Of a stretch of DNA of 51,875 nucleotides, positions 4,738 through 13,671 are shown piece by piece (within the stretch, counting starts at the first letter, position 1; the number at the start of each line of letters is the position of its first letter). The position numbers and the translations under genes are program-made. The stretch comes from Treponema denticola (GTDB lineage Bacteria; Spirochaetota; Spirochaetia; Treponematales; Breznakiellaceae): contig DYPP01000002.1 in NCBI GenBank assembly GCA_020719845.1, positions 35,260 to 87,134 on the forward strand, read 5' to 3'. A model generated the notes under the pieces. That model ran no database searches and was not told the origin of the DNA. It was given only the letters and a program-made list of their open reading frames with translations.

Positions 4738-5169
4738 TCATTTCCGGTTTTTTTTGCCCGAAGGCCTGAGGCTGATGAACACCGCCAGGCCGACCAGGAT
4801 GGAGATGATGCGCAGCGTGCTCGTGGGCAGGGCTTTGCCTTGGGAAGGGACCAGCAGGTTTCCGGCGCTGACCCGCTGTTTGCCGGACACGGGCAATCCG
4901 ACGATCCGGATGAACCGTTCGTCCTCCCGGCCGTAACCCAGTTCCCGGGCGTAGACGGAAAGCGTGTCCGGATCGTAGCGCAGAGCATCCAGTTCGCCGC
5001 CCAGTTCTACGTTGATGCGTTGGAGTTCTTCCATATTGGCCGACAAGCGGTCCCGTTCCGCGCGCAGCCGTTCCATGGCCAGCACGCCGGTGGACCCCAA
5101 GACAAAAGAGGACAATGAATAGCAGACGATGGCGGTCCACAGGGCGGCGATAAACTTGAGATAGCTCAT
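4738..5169 (-). CDS. FtsB/DivIC-like septum formation initiator protein
   Basis: 143 residues. The order is: an N-terminal transmembrane helix (about residues 4-28), a coiled coil (about 30-60, MERLRAERDRL and following), then the DivIC-type segment RYDPDTLSVYARELGYGREDERFIRI (about 64-90), which matches the 'peTIEeiAReeLGyvkpgE' pattern of FtsB/DivIC. FtsB-type proteins form the periplasmic FtsQ-FtsL-FtsB scaffold of the divisome. Unusually, a second hydrophobic segment (about 117-134) follows and the chain ends in a basic tail, so the protein may be anchored at both ends; classical FtsB has one helix. It is transcribed divergently from the acidic 672-aa protein, with a triple-hairpin module between them. 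No Shine-Dalgarno is evident. Confidence 0.75.
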   Translation of the reverse strand: MSYLKFIAALWTAIVCYSLSSFVLGSTGVLAMERLRAERDRLSANMEELQRINVELGGELDALRYDPDTLSVYARELGYGREDERFIRIVGLPVSGKQRVSAGNLLVPSQGKALPTSTLRIISILVGLAVFISLRPSGKKNRK

Positions 5170-5278
5170 TACTACGATTTACGGAGCAAGGCCGGCAATC
5201 CTTGAGCCTTTTGCCGGAGTCGGCGTTGACAACACGCAAATCGCCGGAGTAGGATTTTCGGGTTGAAACGATTGGATG

Positions 5279-5381
5279 AGTCCACTCTAAAAACCGGTTG
5301 TTTTTAGAGCGGACTTAAGCAATTCCTTACAGGAATTGCTTTTTTATCGGTACAAATCTAAAAACTGATGTTTTTAGATTT
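5279..5381. repeat. Triple-hairpin module, copy A
   Basis: Three consecutive inverted repeats fill most of the 306-bp divergent gap 5170-5475. Hairpin A1 has arms 5279-5294 and 5300-5315 (AGTCCACTCTAAAAAC and GTTTTTAGAGCGGACT, one non-Watson-Crick pair, loop CGGTT). Hairpin A2 has arms 5317-5327 and 5331-5341 (AAGCAATTCCT/AGGAATTGCTT, loop TAC). Hairpin A3 has arms 5354-5365 and 5370-5381 (AAATCTAAAAAC/GTTTTTAGATTT, loop TGAT). The whole unit recurs in reverse orientation at 12436-12539. A2 followed by T residues resembles a terminator on the plus strand, but no gene on that strand ends here. The rest of the gap (5170-5278) shows only an 8-bp repeat, GCCGGAGT at 5213-5220 and 5243-5250. Confidence 0.9.
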
Positions 5382-5387
5382 ATCTCA

Positions 5388-5417
5388 TTGGATGTTTCGG
5401 GAAAAAAAGTCTATACT
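5388..5417 (+). promoter_or_regulatory. Predicted promoter of the acidic-protein/DUF115 operon
   Basis: TTGGAT (5388-5393), an 18-nt spacer and TATACT (5412-5417) lie just downstream of hairpin A3. This would give a leader of about 50 nt before the ATG at 5476, which carries a GGGAG Shine-Dalgarno at 5464-5468. Confidence 0.45.
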
Positions 5418-5475
5418 ATCAACGAAGCTGCGCCGATATTTGCGATACGAGTGTTATACCGAATGGGAGTGGGCA

Positions 5476-7494
5476 ATGGCAATCGATAAGGATCCATCGA
5501 TATACCGCGATCGCGGCACGATCGGAACAAGCGATGAGCTTGATGAATACGGGGTCTGGGTAAAGAGCGAGCCGCAGGATGTTCCGCCCGCAAGCGGTGT
5601 CGGCGATGAATCCATCGAACCGGCGTTGCCGGATATTGAAGATTTGCCGGATCTTGAACTCGATTCGGATTTTGACATGCCCCTGGACGCGGCGCCCAGC
5701 GTCGTTCCCGGTCCCGTTGCGGAAGACTTGCCGGATTTCAGCGACATGGGCCTGGAAGTCGAAGAGCTGGAAGCCGACGGCGCCGCCCTGCCTTCCTTTG
5801 AAGAAGTCGAAACCTTTGCGGACGACGCCCTCGAAGAAATCGAGGAATCGGCGGAAGCTTCTTCCGGCGGCGAGTTCACCGAATTGTCGATGGACGATTT
5901 TCTGGATGGCGAAACGCTTTCCACCGAACTTGAATCCAAAACGGAAACCCGGGAAGAAGAAGACGTCCTGGACATGGATCTGGCTTTTGATGAGGTTCCC
6001 GAAATGCCCGCCGCCGGCGACGATTCCGAAAAGAACCCCGATATGCGGCTCGAAGGCGTTTCCGACTTTGACGATTTCCTCAGCGACCTCGATTCGACCC
6101 CCGTCGCCGCCCTGGACCAAGCCGACGACGGAGCATCCGCGCTGTCCCTTTCCGAGGAAGAAGAATTCGGCGTGGCCCTTTCGGCCTCCGGAGGTTCGGT
6201 GGAAGCCGAAACCGCGCCTCTTGAGGACGAAGCGGCGTTGCGGCCGGAGATGCGGCAGCCCAAAGGTTCCGCTTCGCCCTCCCCGTCCGGGCAAGTCGAT
6301 TTGTCCACCCAGCTGTTGATGCGGATCGCCGAAGAGCTTTCGTCCATCAAAACCGAACTGACCAGCCTGAAACAGGAACTCGCGATCCTGAAGTCGGATG
6401 CCCGGGAAAAACCCCAGGCCGAGCCCTCCGCCGAAGACGGCGCCAAGGGATTTTTTGACGAGGAAGACGACGAAAAAATCGCCCTGACCGGGGATGAACT
6501 GGACAACATCCTGAACAGCGCCGACTTTACCGAAGAAGCCGGCTCGGACGCTACGGAAGAGGATAACCTGACGCTGGATTCGGAGGAATTCATTCCCCTG
6601 GAAGATAGCGAAGAACCGCTTGAATCCGAACCCCTGGGGGACGAATCGGAAGAGGTGGAATTTCTTTCCGACATCGGCAACATACTGGAATCCGAAGAGC
6701 TGCGGGAATTGCAGGAAAATGGGGTTACTCCCATGACCGAAGCGCCCGAGGATACCAGCTATCTGGAAGCCGAAACCATGGACCTGGACCATCTGGATCT
6801 GACGGATGCGGTCATCGATGAACCCGACCTGGGCAACATCATCCTGGAAGAAGCGCCGGTGGAAGAGCCGGCCATCGATTCCATCCATATCGACCTGGAT
6901 ATGGAAGAAGCCCTCCACGTCGAAGACTCGGGACTTGGGCTTTCCGTCGAAGACAGCGGCGGGGCGGAGCTGGAAACCGGAGAAATCGAGCTGACCGTCG
7001 ACCAGAGCGCTCCCTTCGACCTGGAAGAAGAATTGCCGGCCGACGATATTTCCGCAGAAGCCGTGTTTGGGGAAACGGAGGAAGAAGAAGTTCCGTTGCC
7101 GCCCATTGAAGCCGAAGGCGTTCCCGCCTTCAACGAAGAAGAACCGCTCATCCTGGAAGAAAGTTTTGCCGAGGTGATGCCCGAAGGTTTCGTGGTGGAG
7201 CCCGAGGGATCGGAAGAACCTTTTGCCTACGCCGGGAGCCTTCCGGAAGCCGAAGAAGTCGTCGAGACGCTGGACGAAGGAGGCCTGCTGGAAGTACCGG
7301 AGTCCGCAGAGCCTTCCGAAGACGCGTCCCCCGTCGCGCCCCTGCCGGGCAATCTGAAACAAGAAGTAAAAGCCGTTCTTTCCTACATGGATCAGCTGCT
7401 GGAATCGCTTCCGGAAGACAAGATCGAGGAATTTGCCCGTTCAGAATACTTTGAAACCTACAAGAAGCTCTTCGAGGAATTGGGTCTCGTGTAA
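5476..7494 (+). CDS. Large acidic low-complexity protein, first gene of the DUF115 cluster
   Basis: 672 residues, extraordinarily rich in Glu and Asp, with no cysteine visible and a single early tryptophan. I chose the ATG at 5476 (MAIDKDPSIYRDRG) because GGGAG lies 8 nt upstream; an in-frame start at 5368 would sit inside hairpin A3 and add unrelated residues. A short predicted coiled coil (LLMRIAEELSSIKTELTSLK, about residues 279-298) sits mid-chain. The last ~50 residues (EVKAVLSYMDQLLESLPEDK onward, ending YKKLFEELGLV) are helical and of normal composition, and look like the conserved functional part. The long acidic stretches are probably disordered. Its stop overlaps the next start (TAATG), so it is co-translated with the small protein and two DUF115 proteins. 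The function is unknown; a scaffold or regulator linked to motility is an inference from context only. Confidence 0.8.
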   Translation: MAIDKDPSIYRDRGTIGTSDELDEYGVWVKSEPQDVPPASGVGDESIEPALPDIEDLPDLELDSDFDMPLDAAPSVVPGPVAEDLPDFSDMGLEVEELEADGAALPSFEEVETFADDALEEIEESAEASSGGEFTELSMDDFLDGETLSTELESKTETREEEDVLDMDLAFDEVPEMPAAGDDSEKNPDMRLEGVSDFDDFLSDLDSTPVAALDQADDGASALSLSEEEEFGVALSASGGSVEAETAPLEDEAALRPEMRQPKGSASPSPSGQVDLSTQLLMRIAEELSSIKTELTSLKQELAILKSDAREKPQAEPSAEDGAKGFFDEEDDEKIALTGDELDNILNSADFTEEAGSDATEEDNLTLDSEEFIPLEDSEEPLESEPLGDESEEVEFLSDIGNILESEELRELQENGVTPMTEAPEDTSYLEAETMDLDHLDLTDAVIDEPDLGNIILEEAPVEEPAIDSIHIDLDMEEALHVEDSGLGLSVEDSGGAELETGEIELTVDQSAPFDLEEELPADDISAEAVFGETEEEEVPLPPIEAEGVPAFNEEEPLILEESFAEVMPEGFVVEPEGSEEPFAYAGSLPEAEEVVETLDEGGLLEVPESAEPSEDASPVAPLPGNLKQEVKAVLSYMDQLLESLPEDKIEEFARSEYFETYKKLFEELGLV

Positions 7495-8360
7495 TGGGTC
7501 TGCTGGATAGAGCCGCGGCAAGAAGCGGCAGCGCCCCTACGGCGGGCCTACTGCACCGAGCGGCGGCGGTCCAGCCCCGGGAGGAACCTGCGGTCGACGC
7601 CATGGCGGTGGCGTTGATCGACCGTATTCAGCGCTTGCCCCCGGGGGACACCACCGCCTACACCGCGCTTTCGCTGATCAAGACCTACGCCAATTTTGCC
7701 GCCGGTCTGTGCGTCCACCTGCGTGGCCCGGGCCACCAGGGGTACGCGACGATCGGTCTGGGGTCGAGCGACGACCCCTTGTCCATCAAAACGCTATCCC
7801 TCTCTGCGGCGGAGCCTTCCCTTATCGGTACCGTCCAGGACCTTTCGCTGCCCGGGCTGGACGCCGGTCTGCGCGTTTGGGCGTACGCTCTGGATGAGCT
7901 TGAGCCGACGGACAACGCGGTGCTTCTGGTAGAGGACGGGGACTACCCTTTGCCCCTGGCCGATCTGACCGCCATTTTCAGGGCTTGCAGAAAGGCCTTT
8001 GCCCCCCCGGTCAGAACAGCCCCGGCGACGGCCGGGAACGCGGACCTGGCCACTTTTTTAAGGGAGCGGTACGCCCATAACGGAGAACAAACCCAATCCC
8101 TGGCCATCCTGGATCAAGACCCGCTTGTGGCTGCGGCCGGCGCATTCCCGGAACGGGCGGCGTCGGCTATCGGGGCCTTGGGTAGCGTGTTCCCCCTTTC
8201 ATCCCGCCGGGCGCTCGTTTTCTTCATTCAGCCCCGGGACACGGAACTGCTTGTACGCCAACTGACCAAAAGCCTGGGTGCCCAAGTTGTCCTCTCTTTT
8301 GAAGCCCCGAACGCGGATTCGGCCCTGGATGCCATCGGTTCCCTAACCGGACATGATTGA
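7494..8360 (+). CDS. Conserved-looking hypothetical protein in the DUF115 cluster
   Basis: 288 residues; I do not recognise the family. The start overlaps the previous stop (TAATG) and the 3' end overlaps the next gene by 8 bp, so translation is coupled on both sides. The N-terminal ~35 residues are Ala/Arg/Pro-rich and may be a linker. The rest is globular: a helical segment (VALIDRIQRLPPGDTTAYTA), strands typical of a PAS- or GAF-like sensor fold (YATIGLGSS, DAGLRVWAYALDE, AVLLVEDGDY), and a C-terminal alpha/beta part that ends at ADSALDAIGSLTGHD. No signal peptide, membrane helix or cysteine cluster is seen, so it is probably cytoplasmic. The sensor-fold idea is weak. Confidence 0.75.
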   Translation: MGLLDRAAARSGSAPTAGLLHRAAAVQPREEPAVDAMAVALIDRIQRLPPGDTTAYTALSLIKTYANFAAGLCVHLRGPGHQGYATIGLGSSDDPLSIKTLSLSAAEPSLIGTVQDLSLPGLDAGLRVWAYALDELEPTDNAVLLVEDGDYPLPLADLTAIFRACRKAFAPPVRTAPATAGNADLATFLRERYAHNGEQTQSLAILDQDPLVAAAGAFPERAASAIGALGSVFPLSSRRALVFFIQPRDTELLVRQLTKSLGAQVVLSFEAPNADSALDAIGSLTGHD

Positions 8361-9852
8361 GCGGCTCTCCGTAACCCGCAGCGGATGGCCGACGGTATGC
8401 GTAGATTCGCGGTGCCTCCATTCCCGCTATGATCCGCGTATGGAAGCGGAGAAATACGTTGAATCCCTGACCATTGCCGGTGCACCCCGTTGTTTTGTTC
8501 TGGTTGAACCAGGTCTGGAATACCTGGTACCCGGCTTGGGTCGACGTTTTCCTGAAGCCCGGATTCTCGCCGTGCATTGTTCCCCGTTCCTGAGAACGCC
8601 CTTGGCCGATCAGGAGCTGGCCGCGTTGCCTCCGGAGCGGCGCTGGTTTCCGGACGCGACGGAAAGCCTGGCGGCGTTTCTGGAACGCACGATTCCCGAA
8701 ACGGAGCTGCCCGGGGTGCAGGTCATAGAATGGCGCGCCTCTTTGGAAGTTTACGGACCGCTTCTTTTGCCCATCTGGTCGCAGATCGCGGACTTTCTCA
8801 AACGGGGCCACGCCAACCTCCGGACCGTCCAGGCCTTCGGCCCACGGTGGCTCAAGAATGCGATCCGCAATGTCGGGTTGTTGCGCCGGGCTCTGGCTTT
8901 TGAAGCCGGGGACCAACCGGTGGTGATTGCCGGCGCCGGGCCTTCCCTGGCCACCGTTTTGCCCCTGTTGAAAAAAGCCAAAGGGGAAAATGCCTGCACC
9001 CTCGTCGCCGTTTCCTCCGCCGTTCCGGCCTTGCTGGCTTCCCGCCTGGTTCCGGACCTGGTTATCGCGACGGATGGCGGCTTTTGGGCCCGCTCCCACC
9101 TGACGGATTACCTCCGCCGGGCTTCCGGAAAAAACGCGGTGCCCTTCGCCGCAGCGCTTACCGCTTCCCTGCCCTCCCAGTTAGCTACCCAGGACGCGCT
9201 GATCCTGGCCGACGCCAGTCTATGGCAAACCGCCCTGCTGCGGGCCCTGGACCTTCCCTATTTTTCGGCGCCCCAGCGGGGGACGGTCACCGCTACGGCG
9301 CTGGACGTCGCCCTGGGCCTGACCACCGGAACGGTCTATCTGGCCGGTTTTGATCTGGCCCACCGGGATCTGCTGACCCACGTCACCCCCTACGCCCTGG
9401 ACCGGCTGATCGACGAACGGGCCAACCGCTTTCAGCCCGCGTACGCCCAGAGCTTTTCCCGGGCCTCCCAGCTAGAAGCCGGCGGCGCCCTGGGGGTATA
9501 CGCGGCCTGGTTCAAAGATCAGCTGCCCCGCCACGCCGGAAGGCTCAAGGCGCTTCCGGGCATACATCCCGGACTTTCGTTTCTGCCCCGGGCGGACCGG
9601 ATCGCCGCCGCCGCGAACCGTCGGGCGCCCCGGTTTTTTGCCGCCGCGCCCGACGGGGATCCGGGCAACGCCGGACTGGCCCGGTCTGGGGTAGCGCCGG
9701 CTTTTTTCAGGCTTCTCGATGACCCGTTGGCGGGTGCCGCCATAGCGGAAGAACTGGGCGCATTGCTGGGTCTGGCTCCGACGGAACGGACGGGAATGAC
9801 GCTTCGGCGAAGATTGGCTGATCTGTGCGGCACCGCCGCGGGAGTGGTATAG
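8353..9852 (+). CDS. DUF115 / MptE-like protein 1 (motility accessory factor family)
   Basis: 499 residues. The central part carries the DUF115 core: GPRWLKNAIRNVGLL, then PVVIAGAGPSLATVLPLLKK (about residues 193-212) and PDLVIATDGG, followed by LTTGTVYLAGFDLAH. This is the glycine-rich nucleotide-sugar-binding-like fold shared by archaeal MptE (6-hydroxymethylpterin pyrophosphokinase) and by Campylobacter/Helicobacter/Aeromonas Maf proteins, which put nonulosonic acids on flagellin. The start overlaps the upstream gene by 8 bp, and the second DUF115 gene begins 1 bp downstream. In a spirochaete without folate-type pterin neighbours here, a role in flagellar filament glycosylation is more likely than pterin synthesis. 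The acceptor and donor cannot be told from sequence. Confidence 0.8.
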   Translation: MIERLSVTRSGWPTVCVDSRCLHSRYDPRMEAEKYVESLTIAGAPRCFVLVEPGLEYLVPGLGRRFPEARILAVHCSPFLRTPLADQELAALPPERRWFPDATESLAAFLERTIPETELPGVQVIEWRASLEVYGPLLLPIWSQIADFLKRGHANLRTVQAFGPRWLKNAIRNVGLLRRALAFEAGDQPVVIAGAGPSLATVLPLLKKAKGENACTLVAVSSAVPALLASRLVPDLVIATDGGFWARSHLTDYLRRASGKNAVPFAAALTASLPSQLATQDALILADASLWQTALLRALDLPYFSAPQRGTVTATALDVALGLTTGTVYLAGFDLAHRDLLTHVTPYALDRLIDERANRFQPAYAQSFSRASQLEAGGALGVYAAWFKDQLPRHAGRLKALPGIHPGLSFLPRADRIAAAANRRAPRFFAAAPDGDPGNAGLARSGVAPAFFRLLDDPLAGAAIAEELGALLGLAPTERTGMTLRRRLADLCGTAAGVV

Positions 9853-9853
9853 C

Positions 9854-11518
9854 TTGGAAAACCATTTCTTTTTTGAACGCAATCTGCTGGCCTTGGCCCG
9901 CTCCGATGCCCCGCTCTGCGCCCGCCTGTCCGCCGCGCTGACCACCCGGGGTACGTATAAATTCCTTGTTTCCCGTTCGGGAGCGCCCGTTCCGGCTTTT
10001 GTGGACCGGGCGGGCAGCGCCCATCCCCTGCACTCGCTGGTCGATCCCCACCGGGAAGCCCAACGGCTGCTGGCCACCATCCAGGACGGCGGATTTCTGC
10101 TGTTTTTGGGCTTGGGCGGCGGCTACGCCCTAGAAGCCGCCCTGTCGCGCCCGGATGTCCAGGGCGTCACGGTCATAGAATACGGCATCGACGGGGTGGC
10201 GGAATTGTTGGCCTCGATGGAGTACCTGCGGGCGCTGAGCGATCCCCGTTTTGTACTGTTGGTGGATCCGGGTGCGCAAACCCTGCGGGACCACATCCTG
10301 TCCGCGTACCGGCCCGCCCTGTCGGGAGGCATCAGCGTCATACCCCTGCGGACCCGGGTGGATCAGGATCCGGAGGCTTTTGAAGCGGCGACCCGTACCG
10401 TCCGCGCGGCCATCAATACGGTGTCCGAAGACTACTCGGTGCAAGCCTATTTCGGCAAGCGCTGGTTCGCCAATACGCTGCGCAACCTGGATCCCGCGTC
10501 TGCGGCGCCTTTTGCCATACCGCCGGAGAGACGGATCATCGTCACCGCCGCGGGGCCTTCCCTGGACCTGCACCTGCAAACCCTGCGTACGGATACTGCC
10601 AAACGTTACCTGATCGCCACCGACACATCCTTGCCGGCGCTGCTGGCCGCAGGGGTCCGCATCGACGCGGTAGTTTCCATCGATTGCCAGCACATCAGTT
10701 ACTATCATTTTATGGACGGCCTGCCCGGGGAGATTCCCCTCTTTCTGGATTTGGCCAGTCCGCCGGTGCTCGCCTCCCGCTCCCGGATGCCGCGCTTCTT
10801 TTCCGGGGGACATCCGCTGACCCAGTACATCTCCCGGCACTGGCGGCCCCTGCCCTTGATCGACACTTCCGGCGGCAACGTGACCTACGCCGCAGTTTCC
10901 CTGGCCGACGCGCTGGGGGCAGATCGAATTGAATTATACGGGGCCGATTTTTCTTATCCCGAAGGCGACGCCTACGCCAAGGGAACCTATATCCACCCCT
11001 ATTACCAACGGGCGCAAACCAGGCTCGCGCCGTTGGAGGCGCTTTTTGTCGCCTTTCTTTTCAGGAACGAAACCCTGGAGCGCCGCGAGTCGGACGGAAC
11101 CTGGCGCTACGAGACCAAACCCTTGGCGGGTTACCGGGAACGGCTGGAAAACCTATCCCCTACCCTGCGGGCCGAACTGGTCGTCATGCCCGGAAGAGGC
11201 GCTCCGATCAAGCTCAGGCCCGGAAAGCCCGCCCCGCGAACGATCCCGCTGTTCTCATCCGGCCGGAGCGGCATCCGGGTTCCCGAGTTCCTGGCTCTCT
11301 ATCGCCGACGCATCGCCCGGATACCCCGTCTGCGGGGTTCCGTGGCTTCCTACCTGGCGGAGTTGAACGCCGAAGACCGGGACGTGCTGACCACCCTGCT
11401 GCCCAGCGCCGCTGCGGTCCGCCGCCGGGAAGCGACCAAATCCGCGGCGGAAACCCTGGAAGCGGTTCGTTCCTACTGCCTGGACGAAATCGACCGGGTG
11501 CTCGGATCCATGGGCTGA
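9854..11518 (+). CDS. DUF115 / MptE-like protein 2 (motility accessory factor family)
   Basis: 554 residues, starting with a TTG codon 1 bp after the upstream stop. The DUF115 core is clearer than in its neighbour: LFLGLGGGYALEAAL (about residues 79-93), AYFGKRWFANTLRNL, the glycine motif IIVTAAGPSLDLHLQTL (about 229-245), YLIATDTSLPALLAAGVRID and then IDTSGGNVTYAAVSLADALGADRIELYGADFSYPEG. The SGGNV and GADFSY segments are typical of this family. The two copies are clearly divergent and not a recent duplication. Two different DUF115 proteins side by side suggest two acceptors or two sugars. The gene ends convergent to amrB with a 33-bp gap that shows only an imperfect 9-bp inverted repeat. 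Confidence 0.85.
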   Translation: MENHFFFERNLLALARSDAPLCARLSAALTTRGTYKFLVSRSGAPVPAFVDRAGSAHPLHSLVDPHREAQRLLATIQDGGFLLFLGLGGGYALEAALSRPDVQGVTVIEYGIDGVAELLASMEYLRALSDPRFVLLVDPGAQTLRDHILSAYRPALSGGISVIPLRTRVDQDPEAFEAATRTVRAAINTVSEDYSVQAYFGKRWFANTLRNLDPASAAPFAIPPERRIIVTAAGPSLDLHLQTLRTDTAKRYLIATDTSLPALLAAGVRIDAVVSIDCQHISYYHFMDGLPGEIPLFLDLASPPVLASRSRMPRFFSGGHPLTQYISRHWRPLPLIDTSGGNVTYAAVSLADALGADRIELYGADFSYPEGDAYAKGTYIHPYYQRAQTRLAPLEALFVAFLFRNETLERRESDGTWRYETKPLAGYRERLENLSPTLRAELVVMPGRGAPIKLRPGKPAPRTIPLFSSGRSGIRVPEFLALYRRRIARIPRLRGSVASYLAELNAEDRDVLTTLLPSAAAVRRREATKSAAETLEAVRSYCLDEIDRVLGSMG

Positions 11519-11551
11519 AGGATCCGGCGACGCAGCCCGGTGCGACGCCCC

Positions 11552-12376
11552 TCAGGACGGCCAGATCAACGCTGCGTAGCCGACAAAGGAAGCTGCGGGA
11601 CGGCTGTCCGCGCTGGTGCCGTACGCCAGCAGCCGACCCGGCTGGTCCGTCGTGACCGAGGCAAAGCCCATGGCCGCCGCGACGGCTCCGGCGGAACAGG
11701 CGGACTGATCCGCTTCGGACCGTTCGATCACCCTGGCCGGATCGCCAGAAAGGACGGCGGACAGAAATGCCGCGTCGTTCACCTGGCGTACCCAATCCAG
11801 CGCCCTATCCCCCCCGCCGACGGGCATAAAATCATAATTGGGACCATAGTGGGTAAGGTCGGTGGACCCGACCAACACAGATATCCGGCCCAGACGGCGG
11901 CTGATCCCGGCCAGGAGCTTGCCCGTTTCAAAAGAGGCGATCTCCGCGGGCAAGCGCAGCCACAAGAGGCGGGCCCGGGAAAAATAATGATGGACGAAGG
12001 GCAAGAGAATTTCCACCGTATTGTCCTGGCAGCGGTCCGGAGCGCAGTCGAGGTCCGCAGTCAGGGCGGAACGGAATTCGTCGTCCATCATCAGCGGCCC
12101 CTGGGGCGTATCCACCCCGGTTTCTTCCGCGACCAGCGGCCGGGACCCCTTGGGCAGATGGCCGCCGACCACGATGACGGTTTGGGCGCTTGAATCCAGC
12201 GCCGCTATCGCCTGGACCGCGATTTTTCCCGAATACTCCCATCCCGCATGGGGTGCGACGCAGGCCAGCGCGGCGCCCGGCCCGGACGTTCCGGGGAGCC
12301 CGCCGATAAAGCTGTCCACCTGGGCCTGCGTCTGGGGATACCACGGCGGAGGAAGCTGACGTTTGCGGATGGTCAT
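11552..12376 (-). CDS. amrB: AmrB, MEMO1-family protein (AmmeMemoRadiSam system protein B)
   Basis: 274 residues, the normal length for the family. The signature is APHAGWEYSGKIA (about residues 41-53), followed by VIVVGGHLP, the DNTVEILLPFVHHYF block and a C-terminal DQSACSAGAVAAAM segment. MEMO1 proteins have an extradiol-dioxygenase-like fold with His/Asp/Cys residues in a pocket. In bacteria AmrB usually sits with AmrA (AMMECR1) and a radical SAM protein AmrS, and together they appear to modify a still-debated substrate. Neither partner is adjacent here. A strong Shine-Dalgarno (GGAAGGAG) precedes the ATG. A perfect TATAAT on the minus strand at 12427-12432 could be its -10, just beside hairpin B1. 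Confidence 0.85.
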   Translation of the reverse strand: MTIRKRQLPPPWYPQTQAQVDSFIGGLPGTSGPGAALACVAPHAGWEYSGKIAVQAIAALDSSAQTVIVVGGHLPKGSRPLVAEETGVDTPQGPLMMDDEFRSALTADLDCAPDRCQDNTVEILLPFVHHYFSRARLLWLRLPAEIASFETGKLLAGISRRLGRISVLVGSTDLTHYGPNYDFMPVGGGDRALDWVRQVNDAAFLSAVLSGDPARVIERSEADQSACSAGAVAAAMGFASVTTDQPGRLLAYGTSADSRPAASFVGYAALIWPS

Positions 12377-12426
12377 CCTATTCTCCTTCCGACGGTCGTC
12401 GCGGCCAATCGGCCAAATCTCCGGGA

Positions 12427-12432
12427 ATTATA
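12427..12432 (-). promoter_or_regulatory. Predicted -10 element of amrB
   Basis: TATAAT on the minus strand, about 50 nt upstream of the amrB start. No good -35 is present: the expected position falls inside hairpin B1 (12436-12465). The hairpin could therefore influence RNA polymerase binding, or promoter use may depend on an activator. Confidence 0.4.
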
Positions 12433-12435
12433 AGT

Positions 12436-12539
12436 CAACTCTAAAAACTTCAGTTTTTAGAGTTGTTCCGCTTAAAACGCAATTCCTGTAAGGAATTGCT
12501 TAAGTCCGGTCTAAAAACAACCGGTTTTTAGACCGGACT
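12436..12539. repeat. Triple-hairpin module, copy B
   Basis: Reverse-oriented relative of 5279-5381, in the divergent gap between amrB and the degenerate GGDEF gene. Hairpin B1 has arms 12436-12448 and 12453-12465 (CAACTCTAAAAAC/GTTTTTAGAGTTG, loop TTCA). Hairpin B2 has arms 12479-12487 and 12491-12499 (GCAATTCCT/AGGAATTGC, loop GTA). Hairpin B3 has arms 12503-12518 and 12524-12539 (AGTCCGGTCTAAAAAC/GTTTTTAGACCGGACT, loop AACCG, perfect). B2 through B3 differs from the reverse complement of A2-A1 at only a few positions, all in the upper stem of B3. The spacers between the first and second hairpins share a CCG-x-T-x-AAAA core. Confidence 0.9.
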
Positions 12540-12546
12540 CATTATT

Positions 12547-12582
12547 CTAGCACGCCGCCGTAAAACCGTATATAATCGAAAC
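12547..12582 (+). promoter_or_regulatory. Predicted leaderless promoter of the degenerate GGDEF gene
   Basis: A perfect TATAAT (12571-12576) ends 6 nt before the ATG at 12583, with no Shine-Dalgarno. A poor -35 candidate, CTAGCA (12547-12552), lies 18 nt upstream. Transcription would start at about the A of the ATG. Confidence 0.55.
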
Positions 12583-13671
12583 ATGCGAGCTAAATATTCC
12601 ACTGTCATCGCCCTTTTTTGCGCGGGTGTTTATCTTGCGTCCGTCGGTCTGGCCGCCCAGCGGGTCATGACCGGAATCCGGGAACGCCGGGACGCCGCGC
12701 AGCAGGAATTTAAGGATATGACCGACCGGGCTTCCGCCGCGGCGGTACTCGGTTTTATGGAACAGCCCTTCCGGGAAGCCGTGCGGGATTCGCTCTACGC
12801 TTCCGGAACCATGACCGGCGTCATCGTTTCCGGCCCCGACGGCGTGGAATTCGCGGTTGAACGCGAAAAGGGCGCCCTGGAATGGCTGGACGGGAGTCCG
12901 CGCTTCAGCGCCGATTCCGGACTGACCAGGGAACTGTTCTTTGCGCCCCTGCGGGTTGACGGCGTCAGGAACGCTACCATCAGCGCCACCGCCGAATACC
13001 TGGATCGGGAACGATTCCATCCGATCCTTTGGCGCACCCTGGCTGCGGTGCTGGCCGCTCTGGCGATAGCCTTGATCACCCTGGCCTGGGACGGCGCCCC
13101 GGCGGCAAAGCAGAAAACGCCGCCGCCCGCCGCCGCCCGGGACGTAGCCACGGGCCTCTATTCTCCCCACGGAAACGTGAGTTGGCAATCCTATACCCGG
13201 GACCGGCTGGATTCGGAGTTGCACCGCTGCGCATCCTTTGAACAAGATCTGTGCTTTCTGCTGGTCGAAACGACCAATGAGCCGGGCTGGGACGGCGCCT
13301 TCAAGGAATTCGCCGAAATCGCGGTATCTTCCTTTACCTTCCGGGACCTGATTTTTGAACGCGGCACCCGGGGAATCGCCGTCATCCTGCCCAACGTCGA
13401 CCTGGACCACGGCTTCAGCATGACCGGAGAGTTCATCCGCAAGCTCAAACTCAGCCCTTCGATCCCCGGATCGGCGCTGGGTAAAATCAGGGCCGGCCTG
13501 ACCAGCCGCTCGGGCCGCCTGGTGGACGCGGAGCGCATCATCGTGGAAGCGGAACAGGCGCTCCTCAAAGCCATCCGGGAAGCAAGTTCAGAAATCGTCG
13601 CCTTCAAAAGCGATCCGGAACGCTACCGGGCTTTTATCCGGACGTCGCAAAAAAATAATCCCGCCCTCTGA
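12583..13671 (+). CDS. Membrane protein with degenerate GGDEF domain
   Basis: 362 residues. An N-terminal transmembrane helix (about 6-26), a ~120-residue extracytoplasmic sensor region, and a second helix (about 148-170) precede a cytoplasmic domain from about residue 188. That domain begins like a diguanylate cyclase (TGLYSPHG in place of LTGLYNRRY, then RDRLDSELHRCASFEQDLCFLLVE) and ends like one (GLTSRSGRLVDAERIIVEAEQALLKAIREA). The catalytic GGDEF loop is absent: RGTRGIAVILP stands where R-GGDEF-vllP should be, and the metal-binding Asp after the second strand is missing too. It should therefore not make c-di-GMP; it may sense a signal and bind a partner. The 3' end overlaps the convergent DUF4340 gene by 38 bp. 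Confidence 0.75.
   Translation: MRAKYSTVIALFCAGVYLASVGLAAQRVMTGIRERRDAAQQEFKDMTDRASAAAVLGFMEQPFREAVRDSLYASGTMTGVIVSGPDGVEFAVEREKGALEWLDGSPRFSADSGLTRELFFAPLRVDGVRNATISATAEYLDRERFHPILWRTLAAVLAALAIALITLAWDGAPAAKQKTPPPAAARDVATGLYSPHGNVSWQSYTRDRLDSELHRCASFEQDLCFLLVETTNEPGWDGAFKEFAEIAVSSFTFRDLIFERGTRGIAVILPNVDLDHGFSMTGEFIRKLKLSPSIPGSALGKIRAGLTSRSGRLVDAERIIVEAEQALLKAIREASSEIVAFKSDPERYRAFIRTSQKNNPAL

Follow-up and report, generated by a model that had tools for sequence, protein, structure and literature searches.

The two three-hairpin modules that face each other in inverted orientation in the window (the whole 51,875-nucleotide stretch of DNA analyzed here) are very probably copies of a non-autonomous, gene-free DNA transposon (MITE), which is the best overall explanation of the data. 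A dispersed MITE-type family, one of the identities proposed in an earlier note on this DNA, is strongly supported by the large number of copies, the inverted ends, target-site duplications (TSDs) and empty sites. REP-like identity, another of its proposals, is not supported: TSDs are present, and Y1/RAYT genes do not track the copies. A mobile regulatory element, the third proposal, is putative, the one feature in its favor being a hairpin that resembles a terminator in one direction. No previous description of the element in treponemes was found in the literature searched, with subscription journals outside its scope.

Two inverted copies in the window

The copy pair is by far the longest inverted repeat of the window, with 113-nt arms that are 88% complementary in the inverted-repeat scan. 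All three hairpins are present in both copies and on both strands, at z-scores around -10 (-9.3 to -11.5), and none of 200 shuffles was equally stable, which bears out the inverted pair of modules claimed in the earlier note. The places assigned to the modules there were right, but their ends were 1 to 5 bases short; the true element is 109 bp. The CTAAAAAC..GTTTTTAG core occurs four times in the window, compared to zero expected occurrences. No Rfam covariance model matched positions 4800-13100 of the window at E<=1. The features of the two copies are as follows.

5278..5386, plus strand: element copy 1 (subfamily A), 109 bp, G000:C186:40537-40645 (inverted-repeat scan, fold)
5271..5277, no strand: left TSD of copy 1, ATTGGAT, 6-7 bp (sequence; family-level statistics)
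5387..5393, no strand: right TSD of copy 1, ATTGGAT (sequence)
5278..5316, plus strand: H1 of copy 1, at the very left end of the element, with loop CGGTT and its outer arm forming the left terminal inverted repeat (sequence, covariation, fold)
5317..5345, plus strand: H2 and T-run of copy 1, terminator-like on the plus strand only (terminator scan, fold)
5355..5386, plus strand: H3 of copy 1 (loop TGAT) and right end (sequence, fold)
12432..12540, minus strand: element copy 2, 109 bp, G000:C186:47691-47799 (inverted-repeat scan, fold)
12541..12545, no strand: TSD of copy 2, ATAAT in minus-strand reading, adjoining the left end (sequence)
12427..12431, no strand: TSD of copy 2, ATAAT in minus-strand reading, adjoining the right end (sequence)
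12479..12499, minus strand: H2 of copy 2 (GCAATTCCTTACAGGAATTGC), followed by GTTTTAAG (sequence, fold)

The flanking gene calls confirm that both copies lie in divergent gaps, between genes at 4738-5169 (minus strand) and 5476-7494 (plus strand) for copy 1, and at 11552-12376 (minus) and 12583-13671 (plus) for copy 2. The neighbors include DivIC-like and Memo-like proteins. A promoter-like match 5' of copy 1 at 5226-5255 (a consensus match only) would place this copy in a leader.

Hairpin architecture

From the left, the element consists of H1, H2 with its T-run, a linker, H3 and the right end TTGACTC. H1, located at the very left end, is GAGTCCGGTCTAAAAAC-CGGTT-GTTTTTAGACCGGACTT; H2 is GCAATTCCTTACAGGAATTGC, followed by G/TTTTT; the linker between H2 and H3 is either AAGCGGAACA or ATCGGTACAA; and H3 is ACTCTAAAAAC-TGAA-GTTTTTAGAGT. 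Like other MITEs, the element has terminal inverted repeats (GAGTCnnnnCTAAAAAC / GTTTTTAGnnnnGACTC), and this repeat, GAGTC...GACTC, is made up of the H1 and H3 outer arms. At either end, the terminal repeat pairs with an inner arm as a near-perfect hairpin, so that the element consists of two end-hairpins flanking a middle one. Between the window copies, both the stem and the loop of H3 differ (TGAT versus TGAA in the loop), as reported in the earlier note, but H1, described there as almost identical, also differs, with a stem mismatch in copy 1. In many subfamily-A copies, including copy 2 of the window (12432-12442, minus strand), TTGACTC at the right end looks like a -35 box that faces outward.

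Across a set that was anchored on the loops and had been filtered for pairing and in part for the loops themselves, 88.9% of the stem cells are paired in 81 unique H1 sequences and 93.5% in 79 unique H3 sequences, compared to 40-60% when one arm is shifted by one or two positions. The variable stem positions of H1 and H3 show several pair types, with covariation between lineages. The genome scan demanded CCGGTTG and CTGAAG, so that loop conservation is overstated; the H1 loops of the G037 and G027 copies differ from the CGGTT type.

Copies and subfamilies in the genome

In this genome, an exact pattern matched at 22 places, and a covariance model based on 11 of the copies identified approximately 53 distinct places, 19 of which are full-length and closely alike. 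The latter count was derived from 109 rows by merging opposite-strand and overlapping rows by hand and includes weak places that were not inspected individually. The copies are small (38 to 144 bp), non-coding and present at these approximately 53 places, in keeping with a MITE.

Six copies (L042, L043, L045, L049, L051 and L052) form a second subfamily with ends of the GGG...CCC type. The H2 hairpins of the two subfamilies of this genome, which have different ends, are identical at 19 of 21 positions, with one compensating change. Shortened forms comprise two 83-bp copies that lack H2 (L046 and L047), with an identical junction at two sites, and six single hairpins of 38-39 bp (L003, L250, L254, L256, L263 and L264). 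Two of these 39-bp forms, L254 and L256, have perfect TSDs and were initially taken as self-mobile; however, a full copy that loses the segment between its repeated GTTTTTAG arms once inserted yields the same product, and the single-hairpin forms may be either mobile or deletion products of full copies. The shared H2-less junction of L046 and L047 is better evidence for movement of a shortened form. L011/L044 (G000:C147) is a hybrid copy in which the first hairpin is swapped for the unrelated CTGTCCCGTAACTCCCTGAGTTACGGGACAG.

Target-site duplications and empty sites

To assess duplications, we compared the six bases outside GAGTC...GACTC in copies with both flanks. For the 25 intact copies of this genome, 103 of 150 positions match (z 6.9), compared to a mean of 68.7 and a highest value of 87 among 2000 shuffles, whereas other TSD lengths (2-5 and 7-9) gave z of 2.3 or less in the same copies. 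The target consensus in this genome is the AT-rich AWNNWT, and examples of the duplications are AATCAT (L032), ATTAAT (L037) and AAGCAT (L256). The window copies are off the strict 6-bp register: the match spans 7 bases in copy 1 (ATTGGAT) and 5 in copy 2 (ATAAT).

Copies with other ends have duplications of other lengths: 4 bp for GAGC-ended copies (65 of 96 positions versus 31.6, z 7.9) and 3 bp for GGG/GGAC-ended copies (48 of 78 versus 29.7, z 4.7), although these z values are optimistic given the grouping by end sequence, the motif-set right boundary and the post hoc dropping of odd rows. An unanchored scan produced the same 4- and 3-bp signals, less sharp.

Insertion polymorphism, another hallmark of MITEs, was found between G037 and its sister species G040. 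When the joined flanks of ten G037 copies were compared with G040, empty sites were apparent for about six (L073, L286, L291, L297, L318 and L322), with the flanks joined at approximately one copy of the 3-bp target; the L273 site is supportive but ragged, and L279, L288 and L294 are uninformative. These duplications were read by eye on pairwise alignments, and the empty sites pertain to relatives with 3-bp TSDs, not to the window copies. L073 is inserted about 15 bp upstream of the start of a gene that, judging from its first residues, looks like ptsH.

Gene context and the middle hairpin

According to a simple purpose-made gene caller, as opposed to standard annotation, 9 copies in this genome lie in divergent gaps, 9 between tandem genes opposed to the element, 1 between tandem genes in the same orientation, 4 in convergent gaps and 1 inside an ORF, with 1 unresolved; in other genomes, 11 are divergent, 19 opposed, 12 in the same orientation, 11 convergent and 2 inside genes. 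The element thus favors no particular position relative to genes within intergenic DNA. The divergent location of the window copies is therefore not a rule of the family, in which every gene arrangement is seen. Neither of the outcomes that the earlier note regarded as fatal to a dispersed family, a lack of further copies or their confinement mostly to the 3' ends of genes, was encountered.

It is very unlikely that the modules belong to a family of regulatory RNA leaders or attenuators of the host that spread by duplication rather than transposition. Such leaders would fit the RNA-like stems, the one-way, terminator-like H2 and the location of both window copies, each of which precedes a gene of its own orientation. 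However, copies are found beside all gene arrangements, and the TSDs and empty sites point to transposition.

TTTT follows H2 within nine bases in 76 of the 96 family members, and AAAA precedes it in none of the 96, the space on that side being short. The sequence thus has the stable hairpin and T-run of an intrinsic terminator, although in copy 2 the run is just TTTT, behind a G, and this copy is absent from the terminator-scan list. From these features, we infer that H2 may act as a terminator or an attenuator, a terminator role being plausible; the middle hairpin with its T-run would then stop transcription in one direction only.

Quasi-palindrome correction can perfect inverted repeats without selection, and the stem-pairing data could also stem from this process. 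A MITE whose palindromes are kept by such correction (template switching) rather than by selection on the hairpins, with H2 functionless, would depart from the best explanation in nothing but what the hairpins do; we consider this possible, if somewhat unlikely. A working terminator should bias the orientation of the copies, and such a bias is weak, the excess of opposed copies being 9:1 in this genome (p 0.02) and not clearly repeated elsewhere (19:12, p 0.28). Conversely, lineages that differ in H2 sequence have retained the T-run behind this hairpin, and the run never occurs on the opposite side, where, however, the space next to H1 is short.

Distribution of the element

When copies were sought beyond this genome, as the earlier note had proposed, matches were detected in 30 of the 58 relatives searched, the highest raw count for a single genome being 53. 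In a phylum-wide sample, 15 of 198 genomes matched, all within the order of the host. A pattern scan of named genomes yielded at least 113 stretches; all of those listed come from MAGs with the label Treponema, Spirochaetaceae or Spirochaetales, except for a single Sphingomonadales match (L112), which has no hairpins and was dismissed as chance. Because the named-genome figure is only a minimum, the outer range of the family rests on the 198-genome sample. In our reading of the isolate names, most of the named-genome carriers are termite-gut MAGs. The element was not found in viral contigs. In G036, a member of another family, subfamily-A copies are present (L053), one with the perfect 6-bp duplication ATGCTG, reflecting either horizontal transfer or contamination.

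Search for the mobilizing enzyme

Under the MITE explanation, a DDE-type transposase encoded elsewhere would recognize the ends of the element, cut with a short stagger and insert the element at AWNNWT sites. An autonomous parent IS is usual for MITEs, yet for described MITEs it is often unknown. Among the families searched (Y1_Tnp, PF01609, PF13586 and PF13359), we found no parent IS sharing the ends of the element; MAG assemblies often lose repeated IS. Transposases of PF01609, PF13586 and PF13359 were not detected in this genome and do not track the copies in relatives, and none of the inverted repeats around PF01609 matches resembles the element ends. Outside the known copies of this genome, the end pattern matches about as often as the reversed pattern used as a control, with no transposase bearing matching ends, and clustering of the ORFs beside copies (113 loci) revealed no shared transposase-like gene.

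In G027, an IS of about 1.65 kb encoding DDE_Tnp_1_2, with ends GGGCTTCCTGAAAA, is present in 18 near-identical copies (L332, L339, L344 and L347). This 18-copy IS (ends GGGCTTCCTGAAAAAC, 6-bp TNNNNA TSD) was not accepted as the parent: its ends bear only a loose similarity to those of the element, and its target rule differs.

Recurring-loop hairpins, solo and composite forms and intergenic sites would also be expected of REP/BIME-like palindromes moved by a Y1 transposase (RAYT, TnpA-REP) that recognizes single-stranded DNA hairpins. Nevertheless, this origin is extremely unlikely: the family has fixed-length TSDs (6, 4 and 3 bp), and to our knowledge HUH/Y1 enzymes make none. Nor does the distribution of Y1_Tnp follow the copies; G026 has 61 Y1 matches and no element, whereas G005, G016, G018, G042, G027 and G037 have elements and no Y1 match. 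Mobilization by IS200/IS605 or RAYT was rejected on the TSDs and Y1 distribution combined. Y1 transposase matches number 61 in G026 and 28 in G022, where there are no element matches or one weak match.

Comparison with known repeats

Like the bacterial MITEs reviewed previously, such as Correia elements and MITEAba12 (PMC10969869), the treponeme element is short and gene-free, with terminal inverted repeats, target duplication, intergenic location and many copies; unlike these, it combines an order-wide three-hairpin scaffold with three TSD lengths, and no parent IS was found among the families searched. In layout, the nearest system is BOX of Streptococcus pneumoniae, which we do not claim as a homolog: it shares a modular organization (boxA-boxB-boxC) with a variable or absent middle, inverted ends, TSDs and an RNA-like fold, but may repeat its middle module, whereas the middle of the treponeme element is one hairpin with a T-run, or deleted (PMC3049150). 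The nearest in terminator resemblance, again with no claim of homology, is SPRITE of S. pneumoniae, which is dispersed and Rho-independent-terminator-like; SPRITE is enriched near gene 3' ends and has no demonstrable TSD (PMC3049150), whereas the treponeme element has TSDs and shows no preference for 3' ends. The REP/BIME repeats with RAYT are likewise intergenic palindromes, alone or composite; the treponeme element differs in having TSDs and no Y1 association.

A possible relative was found in G053, where a 129-bp element with ends CAGGTTGTTGAAAAA / CAGGGTGTTGAAAAA and 4-bp YTAR duplications, perfect in 13 of 14 copies, is present about 185 times (L348-L377, L378-L386). It resembles the treponeme element in its three-hairpin layout and CCGGTTG in H1 but differs in its CAGGKTGTTGAAAAA ends and perfect 4-bp YTAR TSDs, which we take to be as in IS5-type insertions; a common origin is possible. 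At the single-ended sites examined in G053, no transposase of an autonomous copy with CAGGKTGTTGAAAAA ends was recognized by eye. One 348-bp variant of the 129-bp element is also present (L386).

A persistent scaffold with changing ends

The scaffold is shared over an order, but the lineages differ in its outermost sequence and in the length of the duplication (6, 4 or 3 bp), which suggests that different resident transposases may have mobilized it. This homologous interior with different ends and TSD lengths is the most unusual point of the family. Gradual change of one transposase lineage explains the differences in ends and TSDs as well as an enzyme switch does. Recognition of the hairpins by a transposase is possible, and the fuller proposition, that an old three-hairpin scaffold was kept across the order while switching transposases, with the hairpins themselves being recognized and not only the end sequence, is tentative and, in our judgment, unlikely.

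Treponemes, including species with closed genomes, thus gain a dispersed mobile element, the insertion of which puts a hairpin cassette with a putative terminator into intergenic DNA. A persistent scaffold with changing ends and TSD length would make the acquisition of new transposases by gene-free elements testable.
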